From NCBI GenBank assembly GCA_030426085.1, contig JAUHYW010000096.1, positions 1 through 32,016 on the forward strand: a DNA stretch of 32,016 nt, written 5' to 3'. Origin of the DNA: a bacterium. Lineage in GTDB: Bacteria; Myxococcota_A; Bradymonadia; UBA7976; UBA1532. The notes under the pieces are model-generated. The model did no database searches and was not told the DNA's origin. It saw only the letters and a program-made list of their open reading frames with translations. Below, one piece after another: positions 2,307 to 26,759 of the stretch. The position numbers and the translations under genes are program-made. The number at the start of each line of letters is the position of its first letter. Position 1 is the stretch's first letter.

Positions 2307-5198
2307 ATGAGATACGCCCTCGTCGCCCTCGCCGCGTGCGCCCTGTGCTGCGCCTTGCCGGCCCGCGCGGCCCCGCCCGATGGCTGCTATGCCATGCGGG
2401 CCGACTCGACCGGGCAGCTCATGTCCCACGGGGGGCCGGTCGTGCCGGGCTACTTCGCCAACCGCACCGACCTGGGGCCCTGGGAGCGCTTCTGCGTCGT
2501 CGGCACCCCCGAAGGCACCCACTTGATCCAGGGGGAGGACGGCAAGTACCTGTCGGCCCGCGGCGGGGGCGTCGTGCAGAAGGCCTGGGTGCCCGGCGAG
2601 TGGGAGCGCTGGCGCTTCGCGCAGGGGCCCGGCGGCACCTGGGGCCTGACCAACGTCGCCCACGGCGGCTGGCTGTCGGCGGACAAGGTGCTGGCCGGGG
2701 TGGTGACCACCAAGGGCGCGTTCGACGCGTGGGAGCGATGGCACTTCGAGGCCACCGATGGCTGCCCGTGCTCCTCGATGGCCGAGCCCGACATCGCCAC
2801 CGACGTCACGCCCGCGCCCCGCGGCGGGCCGCTGTTCGGGGTGGCCGACACCCACGCCCACCCGTTCAGCGACCTGGCCTTCGGCGGCACGACGCTGCAC
2901 GGGTCGGCGTTCGACGCGCTGGGGGTGCACGGGGCGCTGCATCAGTGTCACTTCACCCACGGGCCCGACTCGGCGACCGATCTGATCGGGCTGGCGGTCA
3001 ACCACGAGCAGCACGCCAACGGCGGCTACCCGAACATGGATGGCTGGCCGACCCACGCCAACGTCAACCATCAGCAGATGTATCACGCGTGGATGGAGCG
3101 CGCGTGGCGCGGCGGCATGCGGTTGCAGGTGATGCTGGCGGTGAACAACAAGCTGCTGTGCCATGCCAGCAAGATCACCGCCGCGGCGGCCTATGCCATG
3201 ATGGCGAGCACCGCCATCGTCGGCATCCACCCGCCGCCGCCGCCCGATCTGACCGCGAGCTGCGATGACATGGCGTCGATGAAGCGGCAGGTCGCGGCGG
3301 CCAAGGCGCTCGAGGCCTACATCGACCAGCGCAGCGGGGGGCCGGGCGAGGGCTGGTATCGCATCGCCTACAGCCCGGTCGAGGCCCGGCGCATCATCGA
3401 GCAGGGCAAGATGGCGGTGGTGCTGGGGGTCGAGGTGGACACCCTCTTCGGCTGCACCGCCACCGGGCCGTGTGACATGGCCGAGGTCGAGCGGCAGCTC
3501 GACGAGATGCACGCCCTGGGGGTGCGCCATGTGTATCCGATCCATGTCCTGGACAACGCCTTCGGCGGCGCGGCGCAGTACAACCCGATGTTCGTGGCGG
3601 CCAACGTGCTCGAGAACGGGCAGCCCTTCTCGATCACCGAGTGCGATGACGCCACCTTGAAGGCCCGCATGGAGTGGACCGATCTGGGCCCGGTGTGCGA
3701 CGTGCTGGACAAGGTGCCCGGGGCCGGCCCCGAGCTGGGGCAGATCTGCCGCGGCCGGCCGCCGCCGGGCACGGTGCCCCCCGGGGTGGACCGCCACTGC
3801 AACGCCCGCGGCCTGACCCCCCGCGGCGAGCAGCTCGTCAACATGCTGATGGATCGGGGCATGATCATCGACACCGATCACACCAGCGCCCGGGCCCTGG
3901 AGGGCATCCTGGCCATCGCCGAGGCCCGGGGCTACCCGCTGGTCTCGGGGCACGCCGGCCTCGTCGAGCGTATCCGGGTGCCGTCCGAGGCCCACATGGC
4001 CCACCGGGACATCACCCGCTTCAGGAGGCTGGGCGGCCTCGTCTCGCCGATTCTGCACAGCGGGCACACCCTCGACGAGGTGAAGCCCTTCGGCGAGCGG
4101 ATCCCTCACGCCTGCGCCGGCTCGACCACCTCGTGGGCCCAGAACTACCTGTACGCGGTCGACGCGATGGGCGGCCCGGACGTCGCGGCGGTGCCGCTGG
4201 GGTCTGATCTCAATGGCATGATCAGCCAGCCGGCGCCCCGCTTCGGCGAGCGCGCGTGCCATGGGCAGTCGACCCCGGCCAACCCCCGGAAGCGGGTCGA
4301 GTATCCGTTCCCCGCGCACGGGCAGAAGGGGACCTTCGGCCAGCTCCGCACCGGTCACAAGCTGTATGACTACAACGTCGACGGGCTGGCCAACGTGGGG
4401 CTCTTCCCCGACTGGGTGCAGGATCTCAAAGCCATCGGGCTGACCGAACGCGATCTGGCGCCGCTGTTCCGCTCGGCGGAGGGCTACGTGAAGCTGTGGG
4501 AGAAGGCAGACGGCAAGCCCGCGGGGTACACCCGGGTGCCGCTGAGCCAGGAGGCGTCGATGAGCTGGCAGGCCGCGGTCGATCACTGCGCGGCGCAGGG
4601 CAAGCGGCTGGCGAACCGGGCCGACGTATGCCCCGACGGCCCCGAGTCCGCGCCGCGCTACGGCCGGCCCGAGGGCGACGTGTGGATGGCGGTCGGCGAC
4701 ATGCCCAACGCCTGGATCTCGGTCGGCACCGCGTACACCGAGCGCCGCTGCAAATTCCACCGCCACGCCCACGGCGCGGCCCCCGCCTGGGGCACCGATC
4801 GGGGGCCGGAGCCGGTCACCGGCCAGCCGGCGGCCCTGCGCTGCGTGGACTACACCCGGCTGCCCCTGGGGCTCGGGCGGCCGGCCATGCGCACGGTGAC
4901 ATGGCGCGACGCGGAGGGCTATTGCGCCGCCCGGGGGCTGACGCTGGCGACCCGGGCCGATCTGTGCCCCGACGGGCCCGCGGGCGAGCCGCGCTACGGG
5001 CGGGTGCCGGGCGACGTGTGGCTGGCGGTGGGCGACGCCGAGAACGCGTGGCTGTCGGTGGGCGAGTCGTACGCCCCCGAGCGCAAGTGCAAGCTGCACC
5101 GCGAGGTCTACGGACGCGCGCCGCCGTGGGGCGGGCAGAAGGGGCCCGAGCCGGTCACCGGCCGGGAGCCGGCGGCGGTGGTCTGCCGGCCGCGGTGA
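2307..5198 (+). CDS. secreted M19-dipeptidase-like hydrolase with fascin-like N-terminus and duplicated C-terminal module
   Basis: A 963-residue exported protein. The ATG at 2307 follows GGAGG (2298-2302) and opens a signal peptide (RYALVALAACALCCALPARA). Residues about 25-150 have three beta-trefoil-like repeats (PWERF, EWERWRF, AWERWHF) as in fascin/ricin-type folds. The central part resembles the membrane dipeptidase (peptidase M19) family: H183-x-H185 in DTHAH, E376 in GVEVD, H525 in IIDTDHTS, H549 in VSGHAG and D634 in GSDLNG follow the order of the M19 zinc ligands, although the usual HxD is HxH here. The tail is a duplicated Cys-containing module of about 100 residues (752-855 and 864-963) sharing CPDGP, RYGR, GDVW and GPEPVTG; I do not recognise it. 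Substrate unknown; a dipeptide, lactone or amide is plausible. It lies 65 nt upstream of the ABC-type cluster and may be co-transcribed. Confidence 0.75.
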   Translation: MRYALVALAACALCCALPARAAPPDGCYAMRADSTGQLMSHGGPVVPGYFANRTDLGPWERFCVVGTPEGTHLIQGEDGKYLSARGGGVVQKAWVPGEWERWRFAQGPGGTWGLTNVAHGGWLSADKVLAGVVTTKGAFDAWERWHFEATDGCPCSSMAEPDIATDVTPAPRGGPLFGVADTHAHPFSDLAFGGTTLHGSAFDALGVHGALHQCHFTHGPDSATDLIGLAVNHEQHANGGYPNMDGWPTHANVNHQQMYHAWMERAWRGGMRLQVMLAVNNKLLCHASKITAAAAYAMMASTAIVGIHPPPPPDLTASCDDMASMKRQVAAAKALEAYIDQRSGGPGEGWYRIAYSPVEARRIIEQGKMAVVLGVEVDTLFGCTATGPCDMAEVERQLDEMHALGVRHVYPIHVLDNAFGGAAQYNPMFVAANVLENGQPFSITECDDATLKARMEWTDLGPVCDVLDKVPGAGPELGQICRGRPPPGTVPPGVDRHCNARGLTPRGEQLVNMLMDRGMIIDTDHTSARALEGILAIAEARGYPLVSGHAGLVERIRVPSEAHMAHRDITRFRRLGGLVSPILHSGHTLDEVKPFGERIPHACAGSTTSWAQNYLYAVDAMGGPDVAAVPLGSDLNGMISQPAPRFGERACHGQSTPANPRKRVEYPFPAHGQKGTFGQLRTGHKLYDYNVDGLANVGLFPDWVQDLKAIGLTERDLAPLFRSAEGYVKLWEKADGKPAGYTRVPLSQEASMSWQAAVDHCAAQGKRLANRADVCPDGPESAPRYGRPEGDVWMAVGDMPNAWISVGTAYTERRCKFHRHAHGAAPAWGTDRGPEPVTGQPAALRCVDYTRLPLGLGRPAMRTVTWRDAEGYCAARGLTLATRADLCPDGPAGEPRYGRVPGDVWLAVGDAENAWLSVGESYAPERKCKLHREVYGRAPPWGGQKGPEPVTGREPAAVVCRPR

Positions 5199-6025: not shown

Positions 6026-7729
6026 ATGGCGAAGCTGACTCCGGCGGGCAAGGGGCTCGTCACGATCACGATCCTGGCCGTCACCGCGGCCGCGGTGTGG
6101 CACCTGGGCCTGGGCGACATGATCGCCGGCGACGCTGAGGATCCGCCGGCCGGCGAGACCCCCACCGGTGAGGCCCCGAGCGGTGAGCCGGGCGAGGCCC
6201 CGGTGGCCGGGGAGCGCACCGGCACCGTGCCCGATGTGCCCCCCAGCGGCGCGCTGGGCAGCGCCGGCAACCCGCTGAAGGTGTCGATCGTCAGCTTCCA
6301 CGGCTACGCGCCGGCGCTGGTGGCCAACGGCAACGCGCTGAAGACGAAGCCGGGGTCGATCTTCGCCAGGCAGGGCGTCAACATCGAGTTCGTCATCCAG
6401 GATGACATCCCGACGCTGGCCACGGTCTTCACCAGCAAGGCGGCCCACTGCGCGTGGCGCACCAGCGACTTCTGGGCCCAGGAGCACCCCAACCTGCGCA
6501 ACGCGGGCATGGACGCCAAGGCGGTGGTGGTCGTCGACAACACCCAGGGCGCCGACGCGGTCATCGCCCGCGACCCGAACATCCGCCGCATCGAGGATCT
6601 GGTCGGCAAGAAGGTCGCCCTGCTCCAGTTCACCCCGTCCCACGGCATGATGATCGACGCGATCGAGAACAGCAGCCTCTCGGCCCGCAAGAAGAAGTCG
6701 GTCAAGCTGGTCTACATCAACGTCGACGAGGGCACCGCCGGGGTCCGGGCGGCCCTCGAAGGGGGCCACGTCGACGCCGCCGCGCTGTGGGATCCCGACC
6801 TGTCGCTGGCGCTCGAGAAGGTGCAGGGGGCCCACGTCGTCTACTCGACGAAGACCGCCACCAACCTCATCTACGACGTGATGGTCTGCGACAAGCGGGT
6901 GCTCGACGATCCGGCCAACGAGAAGACCCTCCAGGGCTTCGTGGCCGGCTGGATGGCGGGCGTCGAGGCGGCGAAGAAGGACCCCGACAACGCGGTCTCG
7001 GCGCTGGTCGAGACCCAGGAGTTCTTCTCGCTGCTCGCCAAGGAGGAGGGCCGCGACTTCGTCAAGGGGCTCTTCGCCAACCTGGTGTGGACCGGCCTCG
7101 CCGAGAACGCCCGCATCCTGGGCATGTCGGGCGGCACCAACCAGTACGAGCGGGTCTACAAGCGCTTCGACGTGATCTACCGGGCGGCGGGCGCGCTGGC
7201 CAACCCCAACTCGCCGGTCATCAACCCCGCGGATTCGTTCGATTATCGCTTCATCCGCAAGCTGGTCGAGGCCGACCAGAAGGCTCAGGAAGAGGCCAAG
7301 AAGCCCGAGTTCACCTTCACCGAGCAGGAGCGGGAAGAGGTGAGCAAGAAGGAGGCGGCGCTGACCAAGCCGGTGACGGTCAACTTCGAGACCGGCTCGG
7401 CCGAGCTCAACAAGCGCTCGCAGCGCACCATCGACGAGGAGATGGTGCCGATGATCGAGAACAATGGCTCGGCCTACTTCGAGATCTCGGGCAACACCGA
7501 CTCCACCGGCAGCCGGCGCACGAACATGCGGCTGTCGCAGGCGCGCGCGGAGAGCGTGCTCGACTACCTCGTCAAGCAGTGGGAGTTCCCCCGGACGCGC
7601 TTCAAGGTGGTGGGCTACGGCCCCGACCGGCCCATCTGCGACGAGAAGAACCCCGCCGAAGAGGGCGTGGATCTCGAGGCGTGCCGGGCGATGAACCGCC
7701 AGACCCGCCTCGCCATCTTCTCCCGCTGA
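6026..7729 (+). CDS. membrane-anchored NitT/TauT-type substrate-binding protein fused to an OmpA-like domain
   Basis: A 567-residue chimera. Residues 12-30 form an uncleaved-looking membrane segment (no lipobox or AxA site), followed by a Gly/Glu/Pro linker to about residue 78. Residues about 85-370 look like a periplasmic binding domain of the NMT1/TauA/SsuA type (KVSIVSFHGYAPALVANG, VGKKVALLQ, GHVDAAALWDP). Residues about 450-567 are an OmpA-family peptidoglycan-binding domain: NFETGSAEL, then GNTDSTGSRR with D492, LSQARAESV with R507, and a terminal NRQTR (557-561). D492 and R507 match the pair that holds diaminopimelate in this family. The binding protein is therefore probably tethered at both ends, to the inner membrane and to the wall. 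GGAG precedes the ATG. Permease and ATPase genes follow at once. The ligand is unknown; related domains bind sulfonates, nitrate or thiamin precursors. Confidence 0.88.
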   Translation: MAKLTPAGKGLVTITILAVTAAAVWHLGLGDMIAGDAEDPPAGETPTGEAPSGEPGEAPVAGERTGTVPDVPPSGALGSAGNPLKVSIVSFHGYAPALVANGNALKTKPGSIFARQGVNIEFVIQDDIPTLATVFTSKAAHCAWRTSDFWAQEHPNLRNAGMDAKAVVVVDNTQGADAVIARDPNIRRIEDLVGKKVALLQFTPSHGMMIDAIENSSLSARKKKSVKLVYINVDEGTAGVRAALEGGHVDAAALWDPDLSLALEKVQGAHVVYSTKTATNLIYDVMVCDKRVLDDPANEKTLQGFVAGWMAGVEAAKKDPDNAVSALVETQEFFSLLAKEEGRDFVKGLFANLVWTGLAENARILGMSGGTNQYERVYKRFDVIYRAAGALANPNSPVINPADSFDYRFIRKLVEADQKAQEEAKKPEFTFTEQEREEVSKKEAALTKPVTVNFETGSAELNKRSQRTIDEEMVPMIENNGSAYFEISGNTDSTGSRRTNMRLSQARAESVLDYLVKQWEFPRTRFKVVGYGPDRPICDEKNPAEEGVDLEACRAMNRQTRLAIFSR

Positions 7730-20138: not shown

Positions 20139-22118
20139 ATGGCCCGGATCCGCTCCTTGTCGCTCCTGCTCCTGCCATTCGCCCTCGCCGCCTGCGACGA
20201 CGGCAGCGACAGCAACCCCGACGACCTGACGCCGCTGATGCCCGAGGCCGACGGCGGCGAGCCGGAGCCCGATCCCGACGCCGCGCCCGAAGCGTCCGTC
20301 TGGTGCGAGGGCGCCACCGCTCAGATGTACGATCCGTTCGTCAGCACCGAGGTGGACCTCTTCCCCGACGACGCGCTCACCCGCGAGGACGCCGACAGCC
20401 CCACCGGCCTGCGGCTCGACCTGGACCCCGAGCGGGTGCCGTGGGTCGGCAACATCCCCCGGCTGTTCGGCGACAGCGTGACCGACATGAGCCAGCTCTC
20501 GGGCTTCGGGCTCAACGGAGCGATCATCGTGCGCTTCACCGCGCCGGTCGAGCCCCTGCCCGACGGGTACGAGGCCTCGATGAGCAGCGAGGCGGTGATG
20601 CTCTTCGACCTCGACGCCGAGCCACCCACCCGCATCCCGTACACGGTGACCTACGGCGACGCCGGAGCCACCGCCATCGTGCAGCCGATGCACCCCATGC
20701 GGGCCGGCACCCGCCACGGGTTGATCATCACCAACGACCACCCGGCGGCCGATGGCGACTGCGTGGCGCCCAGCGAGACGCTCAAGGGCATCCTGGGCGA
20801 CGCCGCGCTCGACCCCCGGCTGGAGCGGGTGCGCCCGGGCTACGCCGCGCTGCTGTCGGCGGCGGGGGTCGAGGCCGGCGCGGTGAGCGCGGCGACGGTC
20901 TTCACGACCCACCGCGAGATGGACCTCTACGTCGACATCCTCGACGACATCCTGGCGCGGGACTACGCCTGGGACGGCCCGGCCGATTGCGAGGTCACCG
21001 AGCGCTGGCGCAAGTGCGAGGGCAGCTTCGAGGCGTGGGACTACCGCGACGATCTGGCGGCGACGACCCCCACCCCCAAGGCCCCGTGGACGCTGAAGGT
21101 CTCGATCTGGCTGCCCCTCGATCCGGCGGGGCCGGTGCCGACCCTCTTCGTGGGCCACGGCCTGGGATCGGGCCGGGGGCAGGCGGGCCAGCTCGCCGAT
21201 CTGTGGACCGAGGACGGCTACGCCATCGTGGCGATGGACGCCATGCGCCACGGCGATCACCCGCTCTCGGCGGGCGGCGACGGCTCGGACACCGCGCTGA
21301 GCTTCCTCGGGCTGAACCTGTCGGGGCTCAACGCCAACGGGCGCCAGCTCGTGGGCAACTTCAACCAGACCGTCGTCGATCGCTTGCAGGGCCTGCGGCT
21401 CATCCGCCAGAACCCGGACGTCGACGGGGACGGCACCATCGACCTCGACGTCGGGCGCATCGGCTACTACGGGGTCAGCCTCGGCGGCCTGCTCGGCCCG
21501 GGGCTCGCCGCGCTCGACCCCCACCTCGACATGGCCGTGTGGCAGGTGCCCGGGGGTCACCTCTCGACCTTCATCACCGCCAGCGAAGAGGTGGAGGGCT
21601 TCCTGCCGGCGCTGTCGGCGCTCGTCGGCGGTGAGGATCGCTTCTACCGGATGCTGCCGCTGCTCCAGGCGGCCATCGACCCCGCCGATCCGGCCACCTG
21701 GGCCCTGAACGTCATGCGCGATCGCCTCGGGGGCGGGGGCCCGCTCGACCTGCTCGTGGCCTGCTCGACCGGGGACAACGTGGTGCCGCCCCCGACCGGG
21801 GTCTATCTGGCCCGGGCGCTGCGCCTGAATCACATCGGCGCGGTGATCTTCGCCGACGACCTGCTGCCGTGGGCCGAGGCGCCGGCCGCGGGCAACGCCT
21901 GGGACGGGGAGAGCACCGCTGGCTACACCCAGTTCGACCGGGTGACCAACAACGACGTCCTCGAGCTGAGCGAGCACGCCAACATGCCGCTGTCGCTCGA
22001 AGCCCAGTACCAGGCGCGGGCCTTCATCGAGCCGTGGGTCGAGGGCGGCGAGCCGCAGATCATCGACCCCTACGCCGAGTTGGGCACCCCGGCGCTCGAG
22101 CTGCCGCTCGAGGAGTAG
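20139..22118 (+). CDS. lipase/esterase-like alpha/beta-hydrolase lipoprotein
   Basis: A 659-residue lipoprotein (lipobox LAAC, C19). After an acidic linker, residues about 50-220 look like a beta-sandwich bacterial Ig-like region (RFTAPVEPLPDGYEAS). The hydrolase domain has a GxSxG nucleophile, S447 in YYGVSLGG, with D546 (STGDNVV) and H613 (SEHANMP) as triad candidates. A calcium-loop-like motif DVDGDGTIDLD lies at 427-437. This matches lipase-like proteins common in myxobacteria. ATG at 20139 has GGAGGA eight bases upstream. Its last 17 codons before the stop are nearly repeated 1.7 kb downstream. Substrate, lipid or polyester, is unknown. Confidence 0.83.
   Translation: MARIRSLSLLLLPFALAACDDGSDSNPDDLTPLMPEADGGEPEPDPDAAPEASVWCEGATAQMYDPFVSTEVDLFPDDALTREDADSPTGLRLDLDPERVPWVGNIPRLFGDSVTDMSQLSGFGLNGAIIVRFTAPVEPLPDGYEASMSSEAVMLFDLDAEPPTRIPYTVTYGDAGATAIVQPMHPMRAGTRHGLIITNDHPAADGDCVAPSETLKGILGDAALDPRLERVRPGYAALLSAAGVEAGAVSAATVFTTHREMDLYVDILDDILARDYAWDGPADCEVTERWRKCEGSFEAWDYRDDLAATTPTPKAPWTLKVSIWLPLDPAGPVPTLFVGHGLGSGRGQAGQLADLWTEDGYAIVAMDAMRHGDHPLSAGGDGSDTALSFLGLNLSGLNANGRQLVGNFNQTVVDRLQGLRLIRQNPDVDGDGTIDLDVGRIGYYGVSLGGLLGPGLAALDPHLDMAVWQVPGGHLSTFITASEEVEGFLPALSALVGGEDRFYRMLPLLQAAIDPADPATWALNVMRDRLGGGGPLDLLVACSTGDNVVPPPTGVYLARALRLNHIGAVIFADDLLPWAEAPAAGNAWDGESTAGYTQFDRVTNNDVLELSEHANMPLSLEAQYQARAFIEPWVEGGEPQIIDPYAELGTPALELPLEE
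22065..22115 (+). repeat. 51-bp direct repeat, copy A (3' end of the lipase gene)
   Basis: The last 17 codons of the lipase, reading DPYAELGTPALELPLEE. Copy B at 23789-23839 is 45 of 51 identical in the same orientation. The two copies flank the peroxidase gene and its upstream region. Confidence 0.85.
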
Positions 22119-22124
22119 GCGCCG

Positions 22125-23570
22125 TCAGCCGCGCTCGACGAAGCGCACCACGTCGGCCAGCTCGAAGGGGAAGGCGTCGTCGGTCGCCAGGGCGTCGCGG
22201 TCGAGCACGACCCCGTCGGCGAGGCCGGCGACGCACGGATCGGGGCTCCACTTCGGCGCGTGGATGAAGCTCGTCTCGCAGAAGCGCAGCATGGCCCCGA
22301 AGACCTCCATGAGGATGGCCGACCCCACCGGGCCCAGCCGCTGCCCGCCCGCGCGCCGCTCCGACTCGCGCAGGATGTAGTAGAACAGCGGCGTCTCCTT
22401 CTCCAGCCCCTCCAGCCCGGGCACCCCGATGTCCGGGGCGAAGCCGGGATCGATCGCGGGGTAGACCCCGGCCAGCGCCGCCGCCACCGCCTGCCCCGAC
22501 GGCAGGCTCAGCGCGTTGCCCCGCAGCACGTTGCGGAAGGCCAGCGCCCGATTGACCGGGTTGCGGCTGTCGACCACCGGCAGATCCTGAAGCTCGTCGG
22601 CCAGCAGCGGATCGACCGCCTTGCAGCGCCGGGGCTCGACGCAGCGGGCCACCGGCAGCAGGTAGCGCCAGTCGACGGCCAGCTCGGCCGGGATCCGATC
22701 GAAGCCGCGCAGCCCGAAGGCCGGGTCGAACAGCTCGAGGTCGAGGTGATCCCGGTTGACGGCGTAGGTCGAGCGCACGAGCGTGTGCCCCACCCGGAAG
22801 GCGGCCACCGAGAACTCGACCGGCATGCACAGCCCCTTGCACGGGTCCGGTCGGTGGAAGAACGGGAAGGCCGCATCGCCGGCGACCAGCTTCGCGGCGG
22901 CGAAGGCGAAGACCTCGCGGTCGCACAGCCGCTTGAGCAGATCGAAGAGCACCAGCCACTGGTAGTGGAACCGGGTCTCGCGCTGGGCCAGTTCGAAGCG
23001 GGCGTCGTGGGCCCCGCCGTTCGGCACCACCCGCTCGTCGTACAGCCGGTTGTGGAACCGGTGGAAGAGGAGCTGGAGCTGCGAGACGAACAGGTTCTCG
23101 TCGTTGCGCGGGTCGCCGATGAGCGCGCCCCCGCCCGGCGCCCGAGCCAGATCGTGGCCCTCGGGCCCCACGGCCAGCCGCCCCGGGCGCTCGGCGTCGT
23201 AGAGGTGGGGGCTCGCCTCGGGCCCGAAGCCGTACACGCAGTCGAGGTCGAGGCTGACCGAGCGCACGTTGGGCAGCGCGGCGATCCCGTCCGGGTCGAG
23301 CGGCTCGCCGCGCAGCTCGCTGGTGCCGTCGAGGGTGATGTCGTGGTCGATGAACTGCGCGAAGAAGATGTAGCCCGCCGGGATCGCGCAGTCGCCCGAC
23401 AGATCATCGAAGTCGTGCATCAGGCCGCCGGGGCCGCCGAGGCGCTCGGCCGTGGCCTCGCTGACCGGCAGCCCGGGCAGGTCGAAGAGCTTGCAGAAGC
23501 GGGACACCGCGAGGTGGGTGCAGCCGCGGGTGCGGGTGGCGCCGTGATGGCACATGCGGGGGTGGCTCAT
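22125..23570 (-). CDS. animal-type haem peroxidase
   Basis: A 481-residue protein of the animal haem peroxidase superfamily (relatives of myeloperoxidase, cyclooxygenase and linoleate diol synthases). The distal His is H76, in FAQFIDHDITLDG, with D75 before it, the proximal His is H262 in FRVGHTLV, and GDPRNDEN (152-159) followed by LQLLFHRFHN is the conserved calcium/haem region. No signal peptide is visible; the N-terminus is Cys/His-rich (CHHGATRTRGCTH). Substrate could be halides, phenols or fatty acids. ATG at 23570 follows GGGAG some 11 nt upstream. It converges on the lipase with a 6-bp gap and is flanked by near-direct 51-bp repeats. Bacterial homologs are patchy, so horizontal transfer is possible. 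Confidence 0.9.
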   Translation of the reverse strand: MSHPRMCHHGATRTRGCTHLAVSRFCKLFDLPGLPVSEATAERLGGPGGLMHDFDDLSGDCAIPAGYIFFAQFIDHDITLDGTSELRGEPLDPDGIAALPNVRSVSLDLDCVYGFGPEASPHLYDAERPGRLAVGPEGHDLARAPGGGALIGDPRNDENLFVSQLQLLFHRFHNRLYDERVVPNGGAHDARFELAQRETRFHYQWLVLFDLLKRLCDREVFAFAAAKLVAGDAAFPFFHRPDPCKGLCMPVEFSVAAFRVGHTLVRSTYAVNRDHLDLELFDPAFGLRGFDRIPAELAVDWRYLLPVARCVEPRRCKAVDPLLADELQDLPVVDSRNPVNRALAFRNVLRGNALSLPSGQAVAAALAGVYPAIDPGFAPDIGVPGLEGLEKETPLFYYILRESERRAGGQRLGPVGSAILMEVFGAMLRFCETSFIHAPKWSPDPCVAGLADGVVLDRDALATDDAFPFELADVVRFVERG

Positions 23571-23594
23571 GGGTCGTGTCTCCCTGTGGTGTGG

Positions 23595-23611
23595 GTCCCG
23601 CCCGTCGGGAC
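23595..23611 (-). promoter_or_regulatory. hairpin in the peroxidase 5' leader
   Basis: GTCCCG-CCCGT-CGGGAC is a perfect 6-bp stem with a 5-nt loop, 25-41 nt upstream of the peroxidase ATG. An alternative stem extends it through GGTGT/ACACC with a small bulge. It could modulate translation or protect the mRNA end. Confidence 0.35.
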
Positions 23612-23674
23612 ACCAGGAGACTATGAGAAACCGGGTGTCATCCGCCGTTTCAGGCGCATTTCAGAGTGATTGCA

Positions 23675-23694
23675 AGCCATTTCGAGCCATTTCG
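23675..23694. repeat. tandem 10-bp repeat
   Basis: AGCCATTTCG occurs twice head to tail at 23675-23684 and 23685-23694, in the unusually AT-rich stretch upstream of the peroxidase gene. It may be a regulator site or chance. Confidence 0.5.
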
Positions 23695-23705
23695 GCAGGC
23701 TCCGG

Positions 23706-23728
23706 CGAGTGATAAGTGATATCACTCG
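23706..23728. promoter_or_regulatory. inverted repeat with nested palindrome, candidate operator
   Basis: CGAGTGAT (23706-23713) and ATCACTCG (23721-23728) are 8-bp arms around 7 nt; AGTGATATCACT (23715-23726) is a perfect nested 12-bp palindrome. A further GAGTGAT half-site lies at 23664-23670. This cluster of four AGTGAT half-sites, about 140 bp upstream of the peroxidase start, looks like a transcription-factor binding region. Confidence 0.45.
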
Positions 23729-23757
23729 ACACGGTGGCGCCCGCCCCGCCGGCCCCG
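23728..23757. repeat. interspersed repeat starting CGACACGGTGGCGC
   Basis: A stretch starting CGACACGGTGGCGC and ending in C-rich sequence, closely matched at 24633-24662 with about four differences over 30 bp. The two lie on either side of the CHRD gene in the same orientation. Confidence 0.55.
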
Positions 23758-23788
23758 GAGGGACTGGCGGGCAGCCCGTTGTCCATCC

Positions 23789-23839
23789 GACCCCGACGCC
23801 GAGCCGGGCACCCCGGCGCTCGAGCTGCCGTTGGAAGAG
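23789..23839 (+). pseudogene. 51-bp direct repeat, copy B: orphan remnant of a lipase 3' end
   Basis: Seventeen codons reading DPDAEPGTPALELPLEE, 45 of 51 bases and 15 of 17 residues identical to the lipase C-terminus at 22065-22115. The stop is lost (GAG then CAT) and no upstream lipase sequence is attached. It sits 19 bp from the end of the CHRD gene on the other strand. It is either a duplicated gene end or the scar of an insertion. Confidence 0.75.
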
Positions 23840-23857: not shown

Positions 23858-24526
23858 TCACTCCGCCGGGTAGATCTGGCCCCGCATCTCGCCATAGAAG
23901 GTATGGGCCTTGGTGTGCAGGTTGAAGTAGAGCAGCCCCCGCCGGGCGATGTGATGCATGCCGGCGACGGTCTTGACCAGCGAGGGCGGCCCCGAGCCGA
24001 TGGGGCACGCCTCGGGCGGCCGCGGCGCCAGCCCCTTCGGCAGCCCGTCGAGGGTCTTGATGTCGGCGTTGGTCAGGGTCTTGCGGAACACGCCGTCCTT
24101 CACCGCCTTCGTCCAGTCCATCGCGTGGTCGCCGTGCCCCCCGCCGTGCGCGCCGAGGTCGACCAGGATCGGACCCAGCACGCCCGGCCGGCCGCAGTGG
24201 ATGTGGAACATCACGATCTCGGCCGGATCGACGCCGGTCATGCGGACCTCCACCTCGACCCGCCCCATGTTGCGGGTGAAGCGGAGCTGGCCCCAGCCGC
24301 GGCTCTCGCGCTGCGCCCGGGGGGTCGACGGCTTCGTATTGGCCAGGCCGGCCTTGGCGGCGAAGCCGGGCATCTCCGACTCGTCGGCCGGCTCCTGAGC
24401 CGGGCTGAGCCACGCTTCGAAGACGACGAATCCGGTGTCGCCGAGGGCGGGGTCTTTGGCCATCGCCGGCGCGGCGCAGGCGACGAGGGCGGCGAGGGTG
24501 AGCAGGGGCAGGGATCTGAATGGCAT
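23858..24526 (-). CDS. secreted CHRD-domain protein
   Basis: A 222-residue exported protein of the CHRD (chordin) family. A signal peptide (LPLLTLAALVACAAPAMA) is followed by one CHRD domain: FHIHCGRPGVLGPILVDL around residues 118-135 and LYFNLHTKAHTFYGEMRGQI near the C-terminus are characteristic. Members are beta-rich secreted proteins of unclear function. An insert rich in His/Gly (HGGGHGDH) after the first motif could bind metal. The ATG at 24526 is preceded by GGAGG; the longer frame from 24748 has no signal. It lies downstream of the glycosyltransferase start, in the opposite direction. Confidence 0.85.
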   Translation of the reverse strand: MPFRSLPLLTLAALVACAAPAMAKDPALGDTGFVVFEAWLSPAQEPADESEMPGFAAKAGLANTKPSTPRAQRESRGWGQLRFTRNMGRVEVEVRMTGVDPAEIVMFHIHCGRPGVLGPILVDLGAHGGGHGDHAMDWTKAVKDGVFRKTLTNADIKTLDGLPKGLAPRPPEACPIGSGPPSLVKTVAGMHHIARRGLLYFNLHTKAHTFYGEMRGQIYPAE

Positions 24527-24613
24527 CGGGGCCTCCGGAGGATGGGGTGACGACAGCGTACCCCGAGCCGCGTCATCGGGCCGCTGGAGCCGCACCCCGA
24601 GGCCTCCCGGCGC

Positions 24614-24662
24614 GCCCGACACGGTGGCCGCCCGACACGGTGGCGCTCGCCCCTCCGCCCCT
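24614..24662. repeat. interspersed repeat, two tandem GCCCGACACGGTGG units
   Basis: GCCCGACACGGTGG is at 24614-24627 and again at 24630-24643. The second continues into GCGCTCGCCCC, matching the site at 23728-23757. The copies lie in the 169-bp divergent gap before the glycosyltransferase. Confidence 0.6.
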
Positions 24663-24695
24663 TGTACTGTGCGCTGCCCTCGCCCCGGAGGAACG

Positions 24696-26759
24696 GTGAG
24701 CCCGGCCATCGAGTCCCGCACCACCCGCCTGCTGCTCGACGCGGCCATCGCCGGCGGGGTCGCCTACGCGGTGCTCTTCGTGGTGCTCGCCCTCGTCCGG
24801 GCCCCCTACGGCTTCGAGCTGGAGTGGATGGAGGGCGGCATGGTCTCCCACGCCGCCCGGCTGCTCGACGGCCAGCCGATCTACGCCCCGCCCGGGGCCG
24901 ACTTCGTGCCCTTCTTCTACACCCCGGGCTACCCGCTGACCCTCGCCGGGCTGGCCTCGATCCTCGGCGGGCTGACCCTGACCCTCGGCCGGGCGGTCTC
25001 TATCGGGGCCACGCTGCTGACCTTCGGCTTCCTCTTCCGGGTCGGCCAGCGGGAGGCCGGCTGGCGCTGGGGGCTGCTGGCGATGGGCCTCTACGCCGGC
25101 ATGTTCCGCGTCACCGGCGCCTTCTACGACCTCGCCCGCCCCGACGCGCTCTTCATCGCGCTCGTCGCCGCGGCGACCTACGTCGCGTACTACCACCGCA
25201 CATGGCGCGGCGCGCTCTTCGCCGGCGCCATCTTCGCGGTGGGCTTTCTGACCAAGCAGACGACCAGCGTCTTCGTGCCCGCGGTGGGTCTGTACCTGCT
25301 GTGGCGCGACTGGCGCCACGCCCTGATCTTCGGCGGCGCGGCCTTCGGGCTGGCCGCGCTGGGGGTCTGGATCGGGGTGCAGATGACCGACGGCTGGATG
25401 TGGACCTACATCTTCGAAGGCCACCAGGGGCACCTGTTCTACTGGAAGAACATCCTGCTCGAGTACTGGCGGGACGTGCTCTTCGTCGCGCCGCTGGTGC
25501 TGCTGCTGCCGCTGCTGTGGTTCGGGGGCAAGGTGCCGGTGCGCATCCTGAGCGTCGCCCTCGCCGGGTGGTGGACCTACGCCTTCGTCTTCCGGGCCAG
25601 CGGCTTCGGCGACTTCCCCCACATGTACTACCGCGACCTGTGGTACCTCGAACCCCGCTGGCTCTTCTTCGTGCCCCCGGCGCTCATCGCGCTGCTGCTC
25701 GGCGCCTTCCGGCTGGCCAACCGGGGCCCGATGTCACCCCCGACCCATGGCTTCTGGCTGCTGATGTTCGTCGCCGGCGCCGGGTCGAGCGGGCTGAATC
25801 ACTCCACCCAGTGGGCCTACAGCAACAGCCTCATGCCCATCGCCCTGTTCGCCGCGTGCCTCATCCCGCTCGCCGCGCGCGACCTGATGACCCACCGCGA
25901 AGGCTGGCGCCCGCGCTTCGCCGCGCTGGTGCCGATGGCCGTCCTCGTGCAGCTCGTCGCCTGGATCTACGATCCTATCGCCCAGGCCCCCAGCGCGGCC
26001 GACGAGGCGGCCCTCGCCCGGCTCGACGCCCGGCTGGCGCAGGTCGAGGGCCCGATCTTCTTCCCCGCGCACCCGCTCTACAGCTGGCACCGCGACGGCC
26101 GGGTGCACACCCACCAGATGGGGATCCAGGACGTCGCGTTCATGGGCGGCGTGCGCGACCTGAGCCCGCGGCTGCGGGCGAAGACCTGGGCCGCGGTGGT
26201 CGTCGACGAGCGCAACCGGGTGCCGGGGCTGGCCCGCAGCTACTACGTCGGCGAGCGCTTCCGCTACGCGGGCGACGCGCTGAAGACCAAGACCGGCTTC
26301 CTGGTGCGGCCGGGCGTGCTGTGGCTGGCCCAGGATCCCACCGAGCGGCGCCTCGCCGAGGGGCTGACCGCCAACTTCGAGGGCCGGACATGGCTCGGCT
26401 GGCAGGTCGGGGGCGACGCGTTCGGCGCGGCCCCCTCGACCCGCGGGCTCCAGGGCCGGCAGGGGCGGGCGGCGGCGTGGTCCAGCCGGGAGGGGACCGG
26501 CGCGCTGACCTCGATCCCGTTCACCGTCACCGCCGACCGCCTGACGCTGCTGGTCGCCGGGCAGGGCAGAGTCGAGGTGACCGTCGAGCAGGCGGGGCGG
26601 GTCATCGCCCGCCACCGGCCCCGGGGCGGCCGGCGGGCGAAGATGAAGCGGGTGTCGCTGGACGTGGCGGCCGCGCGGGGCGCGGCGGTGGTGGTGAAGG
26701 TGCACGACCGTGATCCGAAGGGCCGCGTCGCCATCGACGACCTGCGCCTCGTCGACTGA
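24696..26759 (+). CDS. GT-C-type membrane glycosyltransferase with C-terminal beta-sandwich
   Basis: A 687-residue protein. GTG at 24696, with GGAGG immediately upstream (24687-24691), sets the start; the longer frame is read-through. Residues about 10-480 have some ten membrane segments in the GT39/PMT-like (GT-C) pattern: an early acidic loop ELEWMEGGMVSHA, DLARPDALFIAL, and GFLTKQT. Such enzymes transfer sugars from a polyprenyl-linked donor outside the cytoplasmic membrane. Residues about 560-687 (NFEGRTWLGW, GDAFGAAP, GALTSIPFTV, VAIDDLRL) follow the pattern of the jelly-roll module at the N-terminus of planctomycete-type GH32 (levanase-like) proteins. That fusion suggests binding to glycan. 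Acceptor unknown. It abuts recX with no gap. Confidence 0.82.
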   Translation: MSPAIESRTTRLLLDAAIAGGVAYAVLFVVLALVRAPYGFELEWMEGGMVSHAARLLDGQPIYAPPGADFVPFFYTPGYPLTLAGLASILGGLTLTLGRAVSIGATLLTFGFLFRVGQREAGWRWGLLAMGLYAGMFRVTGAFYDLARPDALFIALVAAATYVAYYHRTWRGALFAGAIFAVGFLTKQTTSVFVPAVGLYLLWRDWRHALIFGGAAFGLAALGVWIGVQMTDGWMWTYIFEGHQGHLFYWKNILLEYWRDVLFVAPLVLLLPLLWFGGKVPVRILSVALAGWWTYAFVFRASGFGDFPHMYYRDLWYLEPRWLFFVPPALIALLLGAFRLANRGPMSPPTHGFWLLMFVAGAGSSGLNHSTQWAYSNSLMPIALFAACLIPLAARDLMTHREGWRPRFAALVPMAVLVQLVAWIYDPIAQAPSAADEAALARLDARLAQVEGPIFFPAHPLYSWHRDGRVHTHQMGIQDVAFMGGVRDLSPRLRAKTWAAVVVDERNRVPGLARSYYVGERFRYAGDALKTKTGFLVRPGVLWLAQDPTERRLAEGLTANFEGRTWLGWQVGGDAFGAAPSTRGLQGRQGRAAAWSSREGTGALTSIPFTVTADRLTLLVAGQGRVEVTVEQAGRVIARHRPRGGRRAKMKRVSLDVAAARGAAVVVKVHDRDPKGRVAIDDLRLVD

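Follow-up and report, generated by a model that had tools for sequence, protein, structure and literature searches.

The last 17 codons of a lipase gene are repeated on the far side of a neighbouring peroxidase gene in the window, that is, in the whole stretch of 32,016 nucleotides of DNA that was analysed, and the reading that is mildly favoured from the sequence is that the second copy represents the decayed relic of a duplication or recombination across the junction of the lipase gene with a PMT glycosyltransferase gene. The evidence comprises two direct repeats, the undivided counterpart of the site in G001, the presence of the peroxidase elsewhere in G001, and a second tail copy devoid of a start codon. 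G001 (JAUHXC01, isolate 2_bin.46) is the one other species of the genus that was compared with the genome under study (G000). The features of the locus are collected in Table 1.

Table 1. Features around the lipase/PMT junction of G000 (window positions).
Feature	Position	Strand	Remarks
Lipase/esterase-like lipoprotein gene	20139..22118	+	Intact; source of tail copy 1
Tail copy 1	22064..22115	+	Final 17 codons of the lipase
Animal-type haem peroxidase gene	22125..23570	-	Pfam An_peroxidase PF03098, E 4e-10
Peroxidase upstream region, AT-richer	23571..23726	.	58% G+C vs 72% in the gene
Degenerate PMT leader copy	23727..23787	+	Promoter-like block, Shine-Dalgarno region, first codons; about 24 nt with TTGTACTGTG missing
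Tail copy 2	23788..23839	+	Lipase-tail relic without stop and without in-frame start
CHRD-domain protein gene	23858..24529	-	Profile match
Original PMT leader	24633..24712	+	CGACACGGTGGCG block, TTGTACTGTG, GGAGGA, GTG start at 24696, CATCGA at 24707-24712
PMT_2-type glycosyltransferase gene	24696..26759	+	Direct neighbour of the lipase in G001; 84% ortholog there

A repeat search of the window found the two tail copies as a direct repeat of 52 nt with a spacing of 1724, in which 46 of the 52 positions are identical (88%) and 25 nt form an exact run. This agrees with the first-pass annotation, which had described 45/51 identical positions (22065-22115 and 23789-23839) in the same orientation and codon phase. 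The repeat scored 74 against a maximum of 45 among 3,094 real control windows from the G000 genome, and none of 300 dinucleotide shuffles scored as high. Likewise, a search of the whole 10.1-Mb genome with the lipase end recovered tail copy 2 at 68 bits (E 2e-12) and a runner-up elsewhere at 46 bits. Both copies lie in the reading phase of the lipase and encode DP(Y/D)AE(L/P)GTPALELPLEE. The repeats had been said to bracket a single gene, and exactly one, the peroxidase gene, lies between them; the loss of the stop from the second copy was also borne out, with CAT at the place equivalent to the TAG (22116-22118) of copy 1. As the stop is replaced by CAT and no ATG, GTG or TTG occurs in its frame downstream of the preceding stop, tail copy 2 is a relic and not a gene; two of its four altered codons are non-synonymous. 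Further matches to the tail (C38) were weak, lay in unrelated sequence, one of them inside an HSP70-like gene, and were discarded. The sequences downstream of the two copies bear no similarity to each other (486 of 500 shuffles as good).

Tail copy 2 adjoins a second direct repeat, overlooked in the first-pass annotation, between 23727-23755 and 24633-24661 (26 of 29 positions identical). The score of this 29-nt block of the PMT leader (43) was reached by none of 2000 shuffles and by none of the 3,094 real windows. Beyond a 24-nt gap that removes TTGTACTGTG, the colinear likeness extends across the ribosome-binding region as far as the first PMT codons; for the residual 32 nt before tail copy 2 the score was 27 with the PMT leader and 18 with the sequence upstream of the lipase itself, and 28 of 11,174 control 40-mers scored as high as the PMT-leader match. 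Against the G001 PMT leader alone, 23727-23787 gave a weak match (47 of 3,094 control windows as good). The CGACACGGTGGCG block was considered as a dispersed repeat and rejected, since, of its four occurrences in G000, the two beyond the window resemble coding sequence and are ascribed to chance.

The order in G000 is therefore [lipase tail - peroxidase - PMT leader'][lipase tail' - CHRD - PMT leader] - PMT, which may be read as two diverged units of one layout. As in a tandem duplication, both ends of the unit occur twice in the same order and orientation, the second end being short and of moderate strength, and the right end abuts the left end in a novel joint of PMT 5' to lipase 3' sequence. 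The two units hold different contents, peroxidase in one and CHRD in the other. Several points count against a duplication or recombination across the junction: the PMT-leader repeat is short, weak against the G001 leader alone and dependent on the 24-nt gap, and no CHRD remnant was found in unit 1 and no peroxidase remnant in unit 2. The bases that follow tail copy 2 match the interior of the peroxidase over 13 nt, which is no more than chance would give (16 of 390 controls).

In G001, the PMT glycosyltransferase gene comes 118 bp after the lipase ortholog (L027 14727..12754, minus strand), whereas 2,577 bp separate the lipase stop from the PMT start in G000. The G001 junction lacks the peroxidase and CHRD genes and holds a single lipase tail, and the locus is colinear with that of G000 through phosphodiesterase, VanY-like, lipase (74% amino acid identity), PMT glycosyltransferase and RecX genes. 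Searching the GTDB r220 contigs yielded G001 together with PMT relatives at a greater distance, and the junction was inspected within the family; in the stretches examined from other family members, some of them short contigs, neither a lipase nor a peroxidase lies beside the PMT gene, and among these relatives G001 alone has the lipase/PMT junction. The first-pass annotation had expected an undivided lipase/CHRD junction with a single repeat in relatives lacking the peroxidase. The undivided site and the single tail are indeed seen, but the junction is lipase/PMT, because G001 and all other relatives searched lack the CHRD gene as well (it is confined to G000 among 57 genomes, 0 of the 56 others).

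Elsewhere in the window, 6026-7729 encodes an unusual-looking fusion of an NMT1/THI5-like substrate-binding domain with a C-terminal OmpA domain, placed before apparent ABC transporter genes, and 2307-5198 encodes a membrane dipeptidase (M19) domain and two DUF7495 stretches within one protein. About six 42-bp units are arrayed at the contig end (31750-32014), where the assembly probably broke.

The bracketed peroxidase scored 39.3 bits with the An_peroxidase profile (PF03098), above the curated cut-off of 25, and is thus a member of that family. Its translation shares with the peroxidase-cyclooxygenase superfamily (PF03098; PMC4420034) the distal-His QFIDHD, the R-x-x-E RNDEN and a proximal-His-like RVGHT, although the peroxidase is here the cargo and not the finding; by sequence it has no close solved structure. 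The gene is convergent with the lipase, the two stops being 6 bp apart. CATTTC is repeated in its upstream region, similar motifs occur upstream of the G001 ortholog, and these are possibly regulator sites. Among the other genomes searched, the peroxidase was found in no relative but G001, where the ortholog (G001:C37; L067 9295-10728; 71% amino acid identity) occupies a locus different from lipase/PMT. There it immediately follows the end of a small gene, again convergent, at a synteny breakpoint relative to G000 (L098, G000:C173); the left synteny block of that small gene (RecQ, an M48-like protease and two others) is common to G000, while the right side differs. As the nucleotide identity between G000 and G001 is similar for peroxidase (78%), lipase (79%) and PMT (81%) and their GC3 is alike (0.96-0.97), the peroxidase seems to be a gene of the genus that has moved and not a foreign import, and the ortholog at another G001 locus argues for a move within the genus. 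The earlier proposal that the peroxidase entered at the lipase 3' end is thus reasonable as to the site, because G001 has an undivided lipase-PMT junction without it, but not as to an origin from outside. Plasmid-borne import was rejected as the plasmid homologs are all less than 60% identical (32-39% among the matches listed).

With the duplication or recombination across the lipase/PMT junction, the segment from the last lipase codons to the first PMT codons would have been doubled, probably by illegitimate joining at a short common sequence, as both ends contain CATCGA, the lipase tail at 22061-22066 (plus strand) and the PMT gene in codons 4-6. What counts against such microhomology is that CATCGA is merely 6 bp and that the present join (CATC/CGACCCC) carries it with a one-base insertion. 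Either a cargo-holding junction was duplicated and the cargoes were then lost differently, or two junction alleles, one with peroxidase and one with CHRD, may have been brought together when DNA received from a close relative recombined here. Later, selection would have kept just the outer copy of each repeat (lipase tail and PMT leader), and the inner copies would have drifted. We infer the joining step, the microhomology and the order of these events from the present arrangement. Tandem duplication, a single crossover with a circle and the merger of alleles give the same product and are inseparable here.

A simple insertion, in which a peroxidase cassette or circle bearing a relative's lipase tail recombined into the lipase 3' end, is a possible but distinctly less probable account. 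The tail repeat, the undivided site and the peroxidase elsewhere in G001 fit it equally well, and a single crossover with a circle gives the same layout. However, the likeness to the PMT leader would have to be accidental and the CHRD gene a separate matter, so that the PMT-leader-like 61 bp just before tail copy 2 are left unexplained. As the first-pass annotation had stated, no integrase is visible: the genes tested include neither an integrase nor a transposase, the window has no tRNA, and the genes between 22119 and 24695 are those of An_peroxidase and CHRD, with no integrase between them. Rather unlikely, too, is the broader proposal that the lipase/PMT junction serves as a small exchange site without an integrase, occupied by different single genes in different strains of the genus, and that the window holds a merger of two such alleles.

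It had further been suggested that a tandem lipase copy was lost around the peroxidase, leaving its last 17 codons. The lipase is an alpha/beta hydrolase, distantly VolA/Pla-1 like, with profile matches just below the cut-off for AXE1 (20.8 bits) and far below it for TIGR03502 (50.7 bits). Tail copy 2 encodes the C-terminus of a lipase in the correct phase, and G001 has a second lipase at another locus that is 50% identical, both of which would suit such a loss. However, no further close lipase remains in G000, the ALELPLEE of tail copy 2 equals that of copy 1 and not that of any paralog tail read, and the sequence before tail copy 2 is closer to the PMT leader than to the lipase. The last point argues against a lost lipase, which is improbable, and for the duplication from lipase tail to PMT leader. 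The tails read from relatives also bear on the possibility, raised earlier, that the motif is a common convergent sequence. (I)IDPYaeLgtPpL is the conserved C-terminus across much of the lipase family, which points to descent and not convergence, whereas the ALELPLEE ending is limited, among the tails read, to the two G000 copies, with their long exact run.

The two Leu codons of the tail, compared by eye, are CTG in G001, TTG and CTC (synonymous) in copy 1, and CCG and TTG in copy 2. At each of them tail copy 2 keeps the ancestral base lost by copy 1, the second case depending on the alignment of a 12-base extension. Because these ancestral bases are retained, tail copy 2 appears to be an old sister of the tail rather than a recent duplicate of its present sequence. 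As both copies carry the extension (ALELPLEE against a short end in G001), the copying would postdate the separation from G001 and belong to the G000 lineage or to a close relative, except if the extension was lost in G001. The cargo was presumably gained in G000, but part of the difference could be loss in G001, and gain and loss are not polarised since a single relative has the lipase/PMT junction. Retention of tail copy 2 for a function, for instance in termination or regulation at the convergent CHRD gene or the peroxidase promoter, would suit its position, with the promoter region of the peroxidase on one side and the stop of the CHRD gene on the other, but its want of an in-frame start, its non-synonymous changes and its absence from G001 make this very improbable. 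Chance or an assembly artefact is scarcely credible even for a contig of a fragmented, MAG-like assembly (178 contigs), since the repeat score is far outside the controls, six differences and ancestral bases in copy 2 are unlike the product of misassembly, and the flanks are colinear with G001.

The locus offers a readable pair, with and without, of a single gene changing place in a large Myxococcota-like genome in which no mobile element is visible. The relocation is bracketed between two species, and as ordinary genome remodelling it leaves the general picture unchanged. An integrase-type element would leave an identical att core that rebuilds the 3' end of its target; here the copies differ at 6 of 52 positions and, opposite to an att-type rebuilt end, the complete tail with its stop sits in the lipase and the far copy has none. 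Illegitimate recombination that needs short homology or none has been described as a source of tandem duplication in bacteria (PMC11111574, citing Reams and Neidle 2004 and Reams 2010). The G000 locus resembles such duplications in a segment doubled over a novel junction without long homology and in a possible short common sequence, but is old and eroded, with units that hold different genes. Homology-facilitated illegitimate recombination is also known to push older 3' ends and modules downstream (PMC5361080). For example, the T6SS immunity arrays of V. cholerae (PMC5361080, where Rhs orphan 3' ends are cited) share with this locus insertions that follow one another at a conserved gene's 3' end and the displacement of old 3' ends and downstream genes. 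They differ in that here there are no toxin or immunity genes, the lipase is complete and only a tail of 17 codons is repeated. The G000 locus is thus one more example of the kinds of recombination already described, in this instance without an integrase.
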